NCBI GenBank assembly: GCA_017881445.1
Contig: JADGQX010000019.1
Span: forward strand, 1-33,106
Length of the DNA: 33,106 nucleotides
Direction: 5' to 3'
From: Gemmatimonadota bacterium
Lineage (GTDB): Bacteria; Gemmatimonadota; Gemmatimonadetes; Longimicrobiales; RSA9
This document shows, piece by piece, positions 3,150 through 24,417 of this stretch (its first letter is position 1; every line of letters starts with the position of its first letter). The notes under the pieces are model-generated. The model ran no database searches and had not been told where the DNA came from. It worked only from the letters and a program-made list of their open reading frames with translations. The translations under genes were made by a program, and so were the position numbers.

Positions 3150-3156
3150 CCCTCAC

Positions 3157-3192
3157 CTTTACCCTTACCCCTGCCCCTGCCCTTGCCCTGCC
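3157..3192. repeat. Degenerate hexanucleotide array (CCYTRC-like, 6 units)
   Basis: Six consecutive 6-nt units fill the gap between the epimerase stop region and the lipoprotein stop at 3194: CTTTAC, CCTTAC, CCCTGC, CCCTGC, CCTTGC, CCTGCC. The same unit type recurs upstream of proS (13106-13153), and a close relative lies in the 3' end of rbfA. Confidence 0.75.
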
Positions 3193-8255: not shown

Positions 8256-8287
8256 CTGAGGCTGGGGCTGGGGCTGAGGCTGGGGCT
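8256..8287. repeat. Left inverted hexanucleotide array (CTGRGG x5)
   Basis: Units: CTGAGG, CTGGGG, CTGGGG, CTGAGG, CTGGGG, then CT. Positions 8256-8285 match the reverse complement of 8739-8768 at 27 of 30 positions. Two of the three differences become G-U pairs in plus-strand RNA. It lies 20 bp before the start of the four-helix-bundle gene. Confidence 0.85.
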
Positions 8288-8307
8288 GACAACACAGTGG
8301 GGGAGGA

Positions 8308-8700
8308 ATGATTCCGCAGTTCGATTTCTCGCGGCTGGAAGCCTACGACCTCGCCGCCGAGTTCGTCCTGTGGACCGAAGCGCAGAGGCATTCACTACGC
8401 CGGCGGCCCCATCTGGCGCATCAGCTCCATCGCGCCGCCACATCGGTGGCGCTGAACATCGCCGAGGGCGCGGGCGAGTTCCGACCACGGGAGAAGGCCC
8501 GGTTCTACCGGATGGCACGGCGCTCCGCCACCGAATGCGCAGGAGTCGTGGACCTGCTGGCGCGCATAGGAACGGTCGAGGCCGAGCAGGCGCAGCGCGG
8601 GGAGGTCCTGCTCGCGCAGATCCTGCCGCTCCTCGTCACGATGTGCCGTAATCAGGAGCGAAAAGCCAGCCGTGTTCCGGGAACGGCCGCCACGAAGTAG
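8308..8700 (+). CDS. Four-helix-bundle protein (23S rRNA intervening-sequence protein-like)
   Basis: A 130-residue protein of the four-helix-bundle (S23/IVP) family, first known from ORFs inside 23S rRNA intervening sequences. Its fold is shared by Avd, the accessory protein of diversity-generating retroelements. The family core is clear: helix 1 LEAYDLAAEFVLWTEAQ, the signature QLHRAATSVALNIAEGAGE (39-57), RFYRMARRSATEC (66-77) and two further helices. A basic tail (about 114-130) follows. The ATG at 8308 has GGGAGGA almost touching it, closer than ideal, but no better in-frame start exists. Molecular function of free-standing members is unknown; the basic surface suggests nucleic-acid binding. 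The gene is enclosed by the inverted arrays 8256-8287 and 8739-8768, and no reverse transcriptase or rRNA gene is nearby. Confidence 0.88.
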   Translation: MIPQFDFSRLEAYDLAAEFVLWTEAQRHSLRRRPHLAHQLHRAATSVALNIAEGAGEFRPREKARFYRMARRSATECAGVVDLLARIGTVEAEQAQRGEVLLAQILPLLVTMCRNQERKASRVPGTAATK

Positions 8701-8738
8701 CCGGCACGTGGATTCGCCCGTAAATCCGCGCCCCCCCA

Positions 8739-8768
8739 CCTCAGCCTCAGCCTCAGCCCCAGCCTCAC
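8739..8768. repeat. Right inverted hexanucleotide array (CCYCAG x5)
   Basis: Units: CCTCAG, CCTCAG, CCTCAG, CCCCAG, CCTCAC. It is the inverted partner of 8256-8285. It starts 38 bp after the four-helix-bundle stop and runs up to and over the guaA stop codon (8765-8767), marking an abrupt junction with the convergent guaA gene. Confidence 0.85.
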
Positions 8769-13105: not shown

Positions 13106-13153
13106 CTTTGCCCTTACCCTTACCCCTACCGTCCCCTACCCTCACCTCTACCC
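13106..13153. repeat. Degenerate hexanucleotide array between hisS and proS
   Basis: CTTTGC, CCTTAC, CCTTAC, CCCTAC are in register at 13106-13129. Decayed C/T/A-rich units (with CTACCC twice) continue to the hisS stop. It shares the CCTTAC unit with 3157-3192 and occupies most of the hisS-proS gap, within about 20 bp of the proS start. Confidence 0.7.
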
Positions 13154-14458
13154 TTACCGTCGTTGTGCCGTTGCCGTTGCTTCACCCAGCGATTCGATCC
13201 GCACCCGCTCTTCCGCGCCGCTGGCCATGTCCCGCACCGCGACCTGACCCGAGGCGACCTCGTCCGGCCCGACCACCACCACGCGGCGGACGCCCCGGGC
13301 GTTCGCGTCCTTGAACTGCGCCTTCACACCCGCGGCCCGCAGCGAGTAGATCGCGCTCCAGCCGGCGCGCCGCAGGCGGGTCGCCATCTCCCGCACGACC
13401 CGGCGCTCGGGCTCGCCCACGGCCACGAGGTAGTAGTCGCCGGCGGGCTCTCCGGAAGGCAGCAGCTCGCGGTCGGCGAGCAGCTCGCGCAGGACGACGT
13501 CGCCCATGCCGAATCCGAGCGCGGGCAGCGACACGCCGCTGACCTGCTCCAGCAGCTGGTCGTAGCGTCCGCCGCCGCAGACCGCGCGCAGCTCGCCCTT
13601 GCGGTCGAAGACCTCGAAGACGATCCCCGTGTAATAGGCCAGCCCCCGGACGATGCGCGGGTCGAAGGTCACCCAGGCACCGAAGCCGAGGGCGCCCAGG
13701 ATGCCGAAGTACTCGCCCAGCCGGGCCAGCTCCTCCGCCACGCCCGGCACGTCGCGATAGGCGGCGGTCAGGGACTCGAAATCGGGATGGGCGAAGATCC
13801 GGAAGATCTGGTCGATGGCGGCCGCGCCCAGCCCCGCCTCCTTCGCCAGCCGGTCACGGATGACGCGCTCCTCCTCGCGGCTGAGCTTGTCGATGGCCGC
13901 GTACGCCGCCATGAGCCGGTCGGCGGGTACGCCCGCGTGCAGCAGCAGCGCCTCCAGCAACCGGCGATCGCTCACGCGGGCCACCACGTCCTGCGCGCTC
14001 AGCCCCAGCAGCTGAAACGATTGGAGCGCCACGGCCAGGATCTCCGCGTCGGCCGCGACGCCCTCTTCCCCCACGACGTCCACGTTCCACTGGAAGTGCT
14101 CGCGCAGGCGCCCGCGCTGCGTGCGCTCGTAGCGGTAGAGCTGGGGAATGGAGAACCAGCGGATCGGCTTGCGCAGCTCGCCCGCGCGGGCGCCCGCCAT
14201 GCGCGCCAGCGTGGGGGTCATCTCGGGGCGCAGCGTTACGGCGCGCCCGCCCTTGTCCTCGAAGTTGTAGAGCTGGCGGACGATCTCGTCGCCGCTCTTG
14301 TCCGTGTAGAGCTCCAGCGGCTCCAGGGGCGGGCCATCATACTCCTCGAAGCCGAATCGACGAGCGGCCTCGCGCCAGGCAGCGAAGATGTGGGAGCGGG
14401 CCGCCAGCTCGCGGGGATAGAAGTCGCGGAAGCCGGGAAGGCTTGTGGTGATTGACAT
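13154..14458 (-). CDS. hisS: Histidyl-tRNA synthetase
   Basis: A 434-residue class II synthetase with N-terminal catalytic core and C-terminal anticodon-binding domain (about 340-425). Landmarks: LPGFRDFYP (7-15), TLRPEMTP, motif 2 RYERTQRGRLREHFQ (109-123), histidine-specific GLAYYTG (272-278), GGGRYD (295-300), and motif 3 ALGFGMGD. The motif 2 loop reads ERTQ and EHFQ where E. coli has ERPQ and QFHQ. The usual GLDYY is GLAYY, so this is not the canonical bacterial subtype. ATG start at 14458, 9 bp past the folC stop. The last residues (EATATAQRR) are coded by a short GCAACG repeat. HisZ is excluded by the intact active site and the anticodon domain. Confidence 0.96.
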   Translation of the reverse strand: MSITTSLPGFRDFYPRELAARSHIFAAWREAARRFGFEEYDGPPLEPLELYTDKSGDEIVRQLYNFEDKGGRAVTLRPEMTPTLARMAGARAGELRKPIRWFSIPQLYRYERTQRGRLREHFQWNVDVVGEEGVAADAEILAVALQSFQLLGLSAQDVVARVSDRRLLEALLLHAGVPADRLMAAYAAIDKLSREEERVIRDRLAKEAGLGAAAIDQIFRIFAHPDFESLTAAYRDVPGVAEELARLGEYFGILGALGFGAWVTFDPRIVRGLAYYTGIVFEVFDRKGELRAVCGGGRYDQLLEQVSGVSLPALGFGMGDVVLRELLADRELLPSGEPAGDYYLVAVGEPERRVVREMATRLRRAGWSAIYSLRAAGVKAQFKDANARGVRRVVVVGPDEVASGQVAVRDMASGAEERVRIESLGEATATAQRR

Positions 14459-22669: not shown

Positions 22670-23122
22670 TCAGTGCTTTCCCGTGCTTCCGAAGCCGCCC
22701 GCGCCCCGCTCCGAGGCAGGCAGATCCGCCGCCTCCCGCCACTCGACGCGCGGCACGAACGCCACCAGCAGCTGCGCAATGCGCTCGCCGTGCGCCACCT
22801 CCTGCGGCGACGCATCCAGGTTCACCAGCGGGATCCGGATTTCCCCCCGGTAGTCGCTGTCGATCGTGCACGGTGTATTGATGATGCTGATGCCGCGCTT
22901 GAGCGCCAGACCCGAGCGCGGCCGGATCTGCGCCTCGGTTCCCGGCGGCAGGGCGATCGCCAGCCCGGTGGGCACCAGCTCCCGACCCAGCGGCGGAATG
23001 ACCAGGGTGGCACCGGCATGGCGCAGGTCCACCGCCGCCGACCCGCTGGTGGCATAGGCCGGCAAGGGCCAGTCGGCGGGATAGTTGTCGAGGCGCTTGA
23101 TGAGGACGGTGACGCTCTCCAC
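22670..23122 (-). CDS. dut: dUTP diphosphatase
   Basis: A 150-residue trimeric dUTPase that hydrolyses dUTP to dUMP and PPi. The five motifs are present: SGSAAVDL (26-33), PRSGLAL (68-74), IDSDYRGEI (87-95, with catalytic Asp90), GERIAQLLV (112-120), and the C-terminal ERGAGGFGSTGKH (138-150). In motif 3 the residue before Thr-Ile-Asp is Cys85, where glycine is usual (NTPCTIDSDY). In motif 1 the usual Gly-Tyr is Ala-Val. I start at GTG 23122, with AAAGG 7 nt upstream and standard family length. A GTG at 23173 would add 17 residues without support. It sits alone between the octamer repeats and the mreB promoter region. Confidence 0.95.
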   Translation of the reverse strand: MESVTVLIKRLDNYPADWPLPAYATSGSAAVDLRHAGATLVIPPLGRELVPTGLAIALPPGTEAQIRPRSGLALKRGISIINTPCTIDSDYRGEIRIPLVNLDASPQEVAHGERIAQLLVAFVPRVEWREAADLPASERGAGGFGSTGKH

Positions 23123-23184
23123 CCGACGGCCTTTCCCATGCACCCGGGCGGGTCCGGGCGCGAATGCGATCACCCTCTTACCGA

Positions 23185-23216
23185 GAGCGGGACAGCGGGA
23201 GAGCGGGAGAGTGGGA
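23185..23216. repeat. Octanucleotide array, right-facing (GAGCGGGA x4)
   Basis: Four 8-nt units: GAGCGGGA, CAGCGGGA, GAGCGGGA, GAGTGGGA. The first three are an inverted match (22/24) to 23279-23302. It lies between dut and ald. Confidence 0.8.
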
Positions 23217-23278
23217 GACCGCGTCCTCGGCGTCGCCGCGAGCCCAAGGGTCGCCGGCCAGGCTTCGGACGCCGTTAC

Positions 23279-23302
23279 TCCCGCTCTCCCCCTCTCCCGC
23301 TC
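23279..23302. repeat. Octanucleotide array, inverted partner (TCCCGCTC x3)
   Basis: Three units: TCCCGCTC, TCCCCCTC, TCCCGCTC, 5 bp past the ald stop on the transcribed strand. With 23185-23208 it can form a stem of up to 24 bp around a 70-nt loop, and may act as the ald 3' hairpin. No ORF lies between the arms. Confidence 0.8.
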
Positions 23303-23307
23303 TGCCG

Positions 23308-24417
23308 TTACAGCACTTCCTCCACCGGCGTGTAGGGCAGGCCGAAGGCCTCCGCCACGCCGGGGTACGTGATCTTGCCCTTGACGACGTTGAGGCCGAG
23401 CGCGAGGGCGCCGTCCTCCTGGCAGGCCTTGACCCAGCCCTTCTGCGCCAGCGTCACGGCGTAGGGGAAGGTGGCGTTGGTCAGCGCCAGCGTCGAGGTG
23501 CGGGGCACCGCCCCCGGCATGTTGGCCACGCCGTAGTGGATCACGCCGTCCACGACGTAGATCGGGTCCTCGTGCGTGGTGGCGTGGATCGTCTCGACGC
23601 AGCCGCCCTGGTCGATGGCGACGTCCACGATGACGGACCCGGGCTTCATGAGCTTGAGGTCCTCGCGACGCACCAGCTTGGGCGCCTTGGCGCCGGGCAG
23701 CAGCACCGCGCCCACGACCAGGTCCGCCTTCGCGATCTGCTCCAGGATGTTGTGGCGGCTGGAGTGCATGGTGAAGACGTTGGCGGGCATGACGTCCGAC
23801 AGGTAGCGCAGGCGGTCGAGCGACAGGTCCAGGATCGTGACCTTGGCGCCCATGCCCGCCGCCATCTTGGCCGCATTGGTGCCGACGATGCCGCCGCCCA
23901 GGATCACGACGTGCGCCGGCTCGACGCCGGGCACGCCGCCCAGCAGCATGCCCAGGCCGCCGTAGAACTTCTCCAGGTACTTGGCGCCCTCCTGCACAGC
24001 CATGCGCCCGGCGACCTCGCTCATGGGCGTCAGCAGCGGCAGCTCACCCGTGGGCAGCTGGACGGTCTCGTAGGCGATGGTCACGGCGCCGGACGCCATG
24101 CAGGCGCGCGTCAGCGGCTCGTCGGCGGCGTAGTGGAAGTACGTGAAGATGACCTGGCCACGCTTCATGCGCGGCCATTCCACCTTGATCGGCTCCTTCA
24201 CCTTCATGATCATCTCGGCCCTGGACCAGACCTCCTCGACCGAGAGCATCTGCGCACCGGCGTCGATGTACTGCGTGTCCTCGAAGCCGCTGCCCACGCC
24301 CGCGCCCTTCTCGACCAGCACCGTGTGACCGGCCTGCACCAGCGTAGCCGCTCCGCCCGGCACCAGCGCCACGCGGTTCTCATTCGTCTTGATTTCCTTG
24401 GGGACCCCGATGATCAT
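23308..24417 (-). CDS. ald: Alanine dehydrogenase
   Basis: A 369-residue NAD-dependent enzyme that interconverts L-alanine and pyruvate plus ammonia. The N-terminus MIIGVPKEIKTNENRVALVP contains the substrate-site Arg and the family signature; Lys and His residues follow in MKVKEPI and TYFHYAADEPL. The Rossmann motif is VVILGGGIVGTNAA (about 169-182) with LDLSLDRL after the second strand. VDVAIDQGGCVET and the late ANMPGAVPRTSTLALTNAT are typical of AlaDH and separate it from transhydrogenase alpha subunits and saccharopine enzymes. ATG start at 24417, 26 bp after the M16 protease gene. The downstream inverted octamer arrays probably end the transcript. Confidence 0.97.
   Translation of the reverse strand: MIIGVPKEIKTNENRVALVPGGAATLVQAGHTVLVEKGAGVGSGFEDTQYIDAGAQMLSVEEVWSRAEMIMKVKEPIKVEWPRMKRGQVIFTYFHYAADEPLTRACMASGAVTIAYETVQLPTGELPLLTPMSEVAGRMAVQEGAKYLEKFYGGLGMLLGGVPGVEPAHVVILGGGIVGTNAAKMAAGMGAKVTILDLSLDRLRYLSDVMPANVFTMHSSRHNILEQIAKADLVVGAVLLPGAKAPKLVRREDLKLMKPGSVIVDVAIDQGGCVETIHATTHEDPIYVVDGVIHYGVANMPGAVPRTSTLALTNATFPYAVTLAQKGWVKACQEDGALALGLNVVKGKITYPGVAEAFGLPYTPVEEVL

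Follow-up and report, generated by a model that had tools for sequence, protein, structure and literature searches.

Inverted octamer arrays enclosing no gene in the ald-dut spacer of a Gemmatimonadota bacterium, probably a copy of a dispersed S23/IVP-type insertion element

Octamer arrays in the ald-dut spacer

We analyzed a 33,106-nt stretch of a Gemmatimonadota genome (contig JADGQX010000019.1; hereafter, the window). On its minus strand, the alanine dehydrogenase gene ald (23308..24417) lies upstream of the dUTPase gene dut (22670..23173; PF00692), for which an alternative start is possible at about 23122. The spacer between these two minus-strand genes contains, as the original prediction had it, two inverted arrays of G-rich octamers with no gene between them. 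The left arm (23185..23216, plus strand) comprises four octamers of the GAGCGGGA type, here termed A type, in the order GAGCGGGA CAGCGGGA GAGCGGGA GAGTGGGA, and carries four GGG tracts spaced by 5 nt. The right arm (23279..23302) consists of three octamers that are G-rich on the minus strand, which is the coding strand of ald and dut; read on that strand, it begins 5 nt past the ald stop codon. Three octamers per arm had been predicted, which holds for the right arm but not for the left. The predicted 24-bp inverted repeat was recovered exactly: 23279-23302, once reverse-complemented, agrees with 23185-23208 at 22 of 24 positions. Between the arms lies a gene-free loop of 62 nt (23217..23278, no strand assigned) that is partly self-complementary (loop z about -2.3). 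Outside the right arm, a degenerate unit, TAACGGCA on the ald strand (23303..23310, minus strand; element consensus GAACGGCR), takes in TAA at 23308-23310, the stop codon of ald.

Across the window, the double octamer gave 8 matches at up to 3 mismatches against 2.16 expected, a number reached in none of 100 shuffles. Folded as RNA, 23185-23302 forms a hairpin of -94.9 kcal/mol (z = -5.3) that no shuffle equaled, and as DNA the hairpin has a z of -5.4. The ald-dut stretch has no rRNA match, and the element does not lie in the helix of an rRNA gene. Rfam matches at the element were discarded as chance, miRNA-like hits produced by the hairpin. A search of the spacer for promoters and terminators detected neither; 22900-23600 contains no terminator-like site and no U-tract after a GC-rich stem.

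Dispersed copies between and within genes

The source genome, a 420-contig assembly of 99.6% completeness with signs of strain mixture, contains 64 + 58 = 122 matches to the A-type double octamer at up to 1 mismatch, compared to 1 for the reversed pattern. A sister unit, GATGGGGN (B type), has 102 matches in the same genome and 0 for its control. Strain mixture as the sole cause of the two arm types was rejected, as both occur on the same contigs. Among 20 relatives, each genome had 0-1 A-type matches and none of B type; in a phylum sample of 395 genomes, only one other, from another family, had many A-type matches, which also appeared in scattered genomes of other phyla.

The arms of neighboring arrays face each other. 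In the stretches read, period-8 G-rich arrays within 200 bp of each other were arranged as 21 FR (G-rich facing C-rich), 1 RF, 0 FF and 0 RR, while arrays with periods of 5-7 and 9-11 showed no convergent bias. For typed units, all 49 of 49 neighboring pairs were FR, a count weakened by the fact that B-type stretches were mostly chosen for close F and R matches; orientation is, therefore, best judged from the period scan and the unselected B-type match list. Some stretches were likewise chosen for holding matches, which biases estimates of density. Arrays of three to four units were the commonest among the period-8 arrays, and the loops of different copies have sequence in common above the level of shuffles and random genomic stretches. 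The octamer elements thus constitute a dispersed, lineage-restricted family with strictly convergent arms. An outer motif, GGGCGCTGAACGGCG, was considered as a fixed element end and set aside on weak support.

Other repeats were encountered in the same data. A third dispersed repeat, present on more than ten contigs (for example, L040:14228-14433), has a 66-bp tandem unit that begins with GGGCGCTGAACGGCGGAGGGGGCGCAAC and there resembles the octamer elements at their outer end. The window itself also contains telomere-like (CCCTTA)n hexamer arrays at 3150-3192 and 13111-13158.

The sampled 14 intergenic A-type pairs included none in a divergent spacer, and most had their G-rich arm on the sense strand and began no more than a few nucleotides from a stop codon. 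Of 56 pairs examined (A and B types), at least 17 were instead located inside frames that are open and coding-like on both sides, on the basis of gene calls made for this analysis and rechecked, for in-gene cases, by frame scores, Pfam and orthologues. Hosts comprised ValRS, PriA (two inserts), a HisD-HisC fusion, MeaB, DUF763, an amidohydrolase, an ABC exporter, QueA, PrmC, a radical-SAM methylthiotransferase, DnaE, a CCG/Fer4 protein, an AcrB-type pump and a CrtC-type protein, with conserved enzymes lengthened by roughly 25-67 residues. Comparison across genera revealed that orthologues lack the inserts of PriA (both), ValRS and MeaB and have a short or variable linker at the site, indicating that the inserts are new DNA. 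As 8 is not a multiple of 3, an A-type array reads as the same cyclic octapeptide, ERESGRAG or SPALPLSR, in every frame of a strand. With no T on one strand and no A on the other, a stop codon is impossible in any frame of the octamer or its complement.

Two side observations concern in-frame sites. On contig C398 (L065:2071-2146), an A-type element lies exactly at the junction between hisD (histidinol dehydrogenase) and a class I/II aminotransferase in a single ORF; this insertion may have fused hisD and hisC. In relative G008 (L188), an unrelated octamer-like array of the GCGACACG type lies in the same PriA linker that an A-type element occupies in the source genome.

These positions bear on the suggestion that the arrays were selected as long 3' hairpins, by which the element after ald would be a terminator, an RNase III site or an mRNA stabilizer. 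The very high stability of the fold speaks for such a function, as do other GC-rich hairpins in several relatives with a wide ald-dut spacer, but relatives with a short spacer lack a hairpin, and the window copy has no T-run. Copies in frame inside conserved enzymes make a terminator unlikely as the general function. Furthermore, the arms of an A-type element pair no better with each other than with arms swapped between elements (P = 0.79), and their unit numbers are not significantly correlated (rho 0.26, p 0.20); there is, thus, no sign of selection for exact pairing. On these grounds selection for 3' hairpins is not supported as a general explanation, and at ald itself we consider it unlikely, if less so than the other alternatives. 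Unit number, then, does not vary together in the two arms, but unit type does, with the same type in both arms of 47 of 49 pairs (Fisher p = 3e-11). As a separate observation, relative G013 (L175), which belongs to another family, has a GGGAATA heptamer array in the same place downstream of ald.

PF05635 genes and matched arrays

The window contains a second element with inverted arrays, which encloses a gene. Its left arm (8256..8289, plus strand) is composed of CTGAGG/CTGGGG hexamers and its right arm (8739..8767, minus strand) of CCTCAG/CCCCAG hexamers inverted to the left (inverted-repeat score 23). Between them, the gene at 8308..8700 (plus strand) matches the Pfam family PF05635, 23S_rRNA_IVP (S23, a four-helix bundle), with E = 8.3e-17 and 61.8 bits versus a cut-off of 33.8. 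The proposed kinship between the octamer pair and this 8256/8768 element gains support from the identity of the gene, as PF05635 genes proved to be systematically flanked by matched inverted arrays.

We identified seven PF05635 genes in the source genome and at least one in 11 of 20 relatives. The unit of the flanking arrays varies by locus (6, 7, 8, 13 or 14 nt), but the arms match. Inverted-repeat scores averaged 25.7 for own partners versus 9.6 for permuted ones (maximum 14.8 in 5,000 permutations), and at 23 of 27 loci the own partner ranked first. A score of at least 14 was attained by 23 of the 27 PF05635 loci and by none of 46 conserved-gene controls. Matched inverted arrays were also present at 12 of 14 loci on plasmids of cyanobacteria, Azospirillum, Riemerella and Gemmatirosa, which represent Cyanobacteriota, Alphaproteobacteria, Bacteroidota and Gemmatimonadota; these plasmid-borne genes were found with a self-written generic four-helix-bundle consensus, and one was confirmed as PF05635, the rest being assigned by record annotation (four helix bundle or S23) or by similarity alone. 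Most of the array statistics derive from a single order of Gemmatimonadota together with the 14 plasmids. Within that scope, matched arms around PF05635 genes favor the general mechanism for making paired arrays that had been suggested from the window alone. To our knowledge, PF05635 has no known transposase activity.

A connection with the octamer families themselves is visible at one locus. The PF05635 gene on contig C127 of the source genome has B-type octamer arms (GATGGGGA), and a gene-less B copy repeats an 18-nt inner edge of it at an equal offset, with 17 of 18 positions identical; the inner right edge gave no signal against gene-less loops. Octamer arms of the A and B families were present at only one of the seven PF05635 genes of this genome, and an A-type arm, GAGCGGGA, beside a PF05635 gene was seen only in a betaproteobacterium. 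The case that the A family descends from a gene-bearing element is, therefore, indirect.

Two further loci are recorded here for their own sake. On contig C17 (L235:1-800, L361), the arms of a PF05635 gene include GGTTAG/CTAACC, the vertebrate telomere unit, and contig C124 (L354/L365) has two PF05635 genes about 450 bp apart with AGCAGG/CTGCTC arms.

Cyanobacterial plasmids provided direct comparisons of occupied and empty sites. At several sites (nrdB-nrdA, cmr2-cmr3 and between conserved plasmid genes), a PF05635 element is present in one plasmid record and missing from a close one. Two sites have exact junctions, at which the insert is flanked on both sides by TTCTA in one case and ATG in the other. 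A site beside a TraM-domain gene is empty in two Nostoc C057 plasmids, contains a PF05635 gene in Nostoc C052 and N. edaphicum and, in Nostoc ATCC 53789, is occupied by gene-less inverted heptamer arrays with the left junction unchanged. The empty Nostoc sites differ from occupied ones by the full element. The three states of this site show that inverted arrays with a gene and inverted arrays without one can be forms of a single element.

The arrays themselves change rapidly. Contigs C44 and C244, which overlap at contig ends, are identical at 41 of 46 flank bases and have alignable loops, yet they differ in arm type, one having B-type arms and the other A-type. Contigs C213 and C405 (L050:1-83, L322) have an identical left flank but differ in the unit of the whole array, AGAGCGGG versus ATAGCNGG. 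Both pairs look like strain variants of one site each, and their differences imply that arrays turn over much faster than their surroundings.

Such local turnover raises an alternative in which the arrays arose by mutation in situ, through octamer slippage and inverted copying by template switching, with no mobile element involved. It would accommodate the swap of a whole-array unit between near-identical flanks and the concerted A/B switch of both arms. It does not account for relatives that lack the entire insert, loop included, for loops common to unrelated sites or for Nostoc sites that differ by a full element, and PF05635 genes inside the arms would be unexpected. We regard it as improbable, somewhat more so than a 3' hairpin function.

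Origin and wider kinship of the element

Taken as observed, these data reveal inserted blocks with inverted tandem-array ends that are tolerated between and inside genes, and such ends are generally associated with PF05635 genes. Element 23185-23302 is probably a gene-less (non-autonomous) copy of a dispersed S23/IVP-type insertion element with tandem-array arms, and we infer that it belongs to the PF05635 superfamily as a gene-less member rather than merely resembling it. Gene-bearing relatives carry the PF05635 S23/IVP gene between inverted short-unit arrays, as at 8256-8767. In the proposed model, the element would insert as one block of new DNA consisting of the arms and the loop, together with the gene in full copies, and copies would persist where harm is small: after stop codons, between genes and in frame inside protein loops. 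The arms fold into a long hairpin, as DNA or RNA, and this hairpin may be the form recognized during movement, in which PF05635 would take part; the octamer family may descend from PF05635-bearing elements or be mobilized by them.

An element-specific unit common to both arms would imply that the arms are synthesized together or corrected against each other. One unit might be kept in both by inter-arm correction or by joint making at insertion. Extension of the two 3' ends of a break on one and the same short template, followed by joining, would yield convergent arms, and so would copying of one arm from the other through a hairpin.

Several known systems resemble the element in part. Among them are the GGGAATC and GGGGA(C/T)T repeats of Xanthomonas and Nostoc, which are short G-rich tandem units dispersed between genes, located on the sense strand near stop codons or antisense before genes and rare between divergent genes, with 70-75 convergent inverted pairs per Xanthomonas genome; their length and sequence vary extensively between close relatives, and no function has been assigned (Rehm et al. 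2015, PMC4692102). The G-rich units studied here share the position near stop codons on the sense strand and the convergent pairs. Unlike those heptamers (GGGNATC), they are octamers (GAGCGGGA) from another phylum, have copies in frame inside conserved enzymes and are linked, as arrays, to PF05635 genes, which go unmentioned in the main text of PMC4692102. X. campestris, an organism of that study, encodes a PF05635-type protein, XCC0516 (PDB 2GSC). A literature search, with most subscription journals outside its scope, returned no paper joining such repeats to PF05635 genes.

For the Xanthomonas and Nostoc repeats it was proposed that simple repeats are kept because they form DNA or RNA G-quadruplexes. 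The same could be asked of the ald-dut copy, as its left arm fits the G3N1-7 rule, arrays of three to four units are commonest and the positions relative to genes are those described in PMC4692102. The right arm, however, has only three tracts, and many PF05635 elements have arms lacking GGG tracts altogether (AATTCA, CGCAAG, ACGTAC), so quadruplexes cannot be the common principle; as an explanation of the arrays they appear very unlikely. REP/REPIN elements moved by a RAYT (Y1 transposase) likewise consist of short, dispersed palindromes with two inverted arms, but we found no RAYT-type gene: the 99.6% complete assembly has no PF01797 match in a search that was positive in E. coli and other controls, and the arms here are octamer arrays rather than GTAG/CGTC-tagged palindromes, which makes this origin scarcely credible.

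Reading the ald-dut copy as a gene-less S23/IVP-type element places it beside the intervening sequences (IVSs) of 23S rRNA genes, which sit in a helix of the rRNA gene and are cut out of the RNA by RNase III. The Coxiella IVS has a terminal stem, an S23 ORF and, just before the ORF, three to four heptamer repeats (GACAGAT) in strain-variable number (Warrier et al., PMC4990558). Like such IVSs, 23185-23302 has complementary ends that form a stem, and 8256-8767 and the other PF05635 loci have an S23 ORF between the arms, which 23185-23302 lacks. Unlike them, the ald-dut element lies outside rRNA genes, the arms are plain tandem arrays and gene-less copies outnumber gene-bearing ones. Rickettsia palindromic elements, about 100-150 bp long, are found between genes and in frame in conserved protein genes (Delihas PMC2229807; PMC10969869), which parallels the intergenic window copy and its in-frame sister copies. 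The Rickettsia elements have a common sequence and 12-bp terminal repeats, whereas the constant part here is the tandem-array architecture. With PF05635 elements bearing tandem-array arms, 23185-23302 agrees in having matched inverted arrays at both ends.

A wider generalization can be drawn, in which our belief and doubt are about evenly balanced: these elements may represent a widespread, unnamed class of bacterial mobile element in which a PF05635 four-helix-bundle gene, or no gene at all, is enclosed by inverted arrays, with a unit of 6-8 (up to 14) nt that is element-specific and arm-matched. The heptamer and octamer families of Xanthomonas, cyanobacteria and others would then be gene-less remains, and rRNA intervening sequences would be the best-known special case. 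Ordinary terminal inverted repeats are inherited rather than renewed, which makes the rule of a free unit with matched arms unusual; it requires some way of writing or repairing the two ends jointly. The finding links three things that have been studied separately, namely short G-rich tandem repeats, S23/four-helix-bundle proteins and the selfish insertions found in genes for rRNA and for proteins. Cultured cyanobacteria, in which a single site occurs empty, full and gene-less, make the function of PF05635 directly testable.
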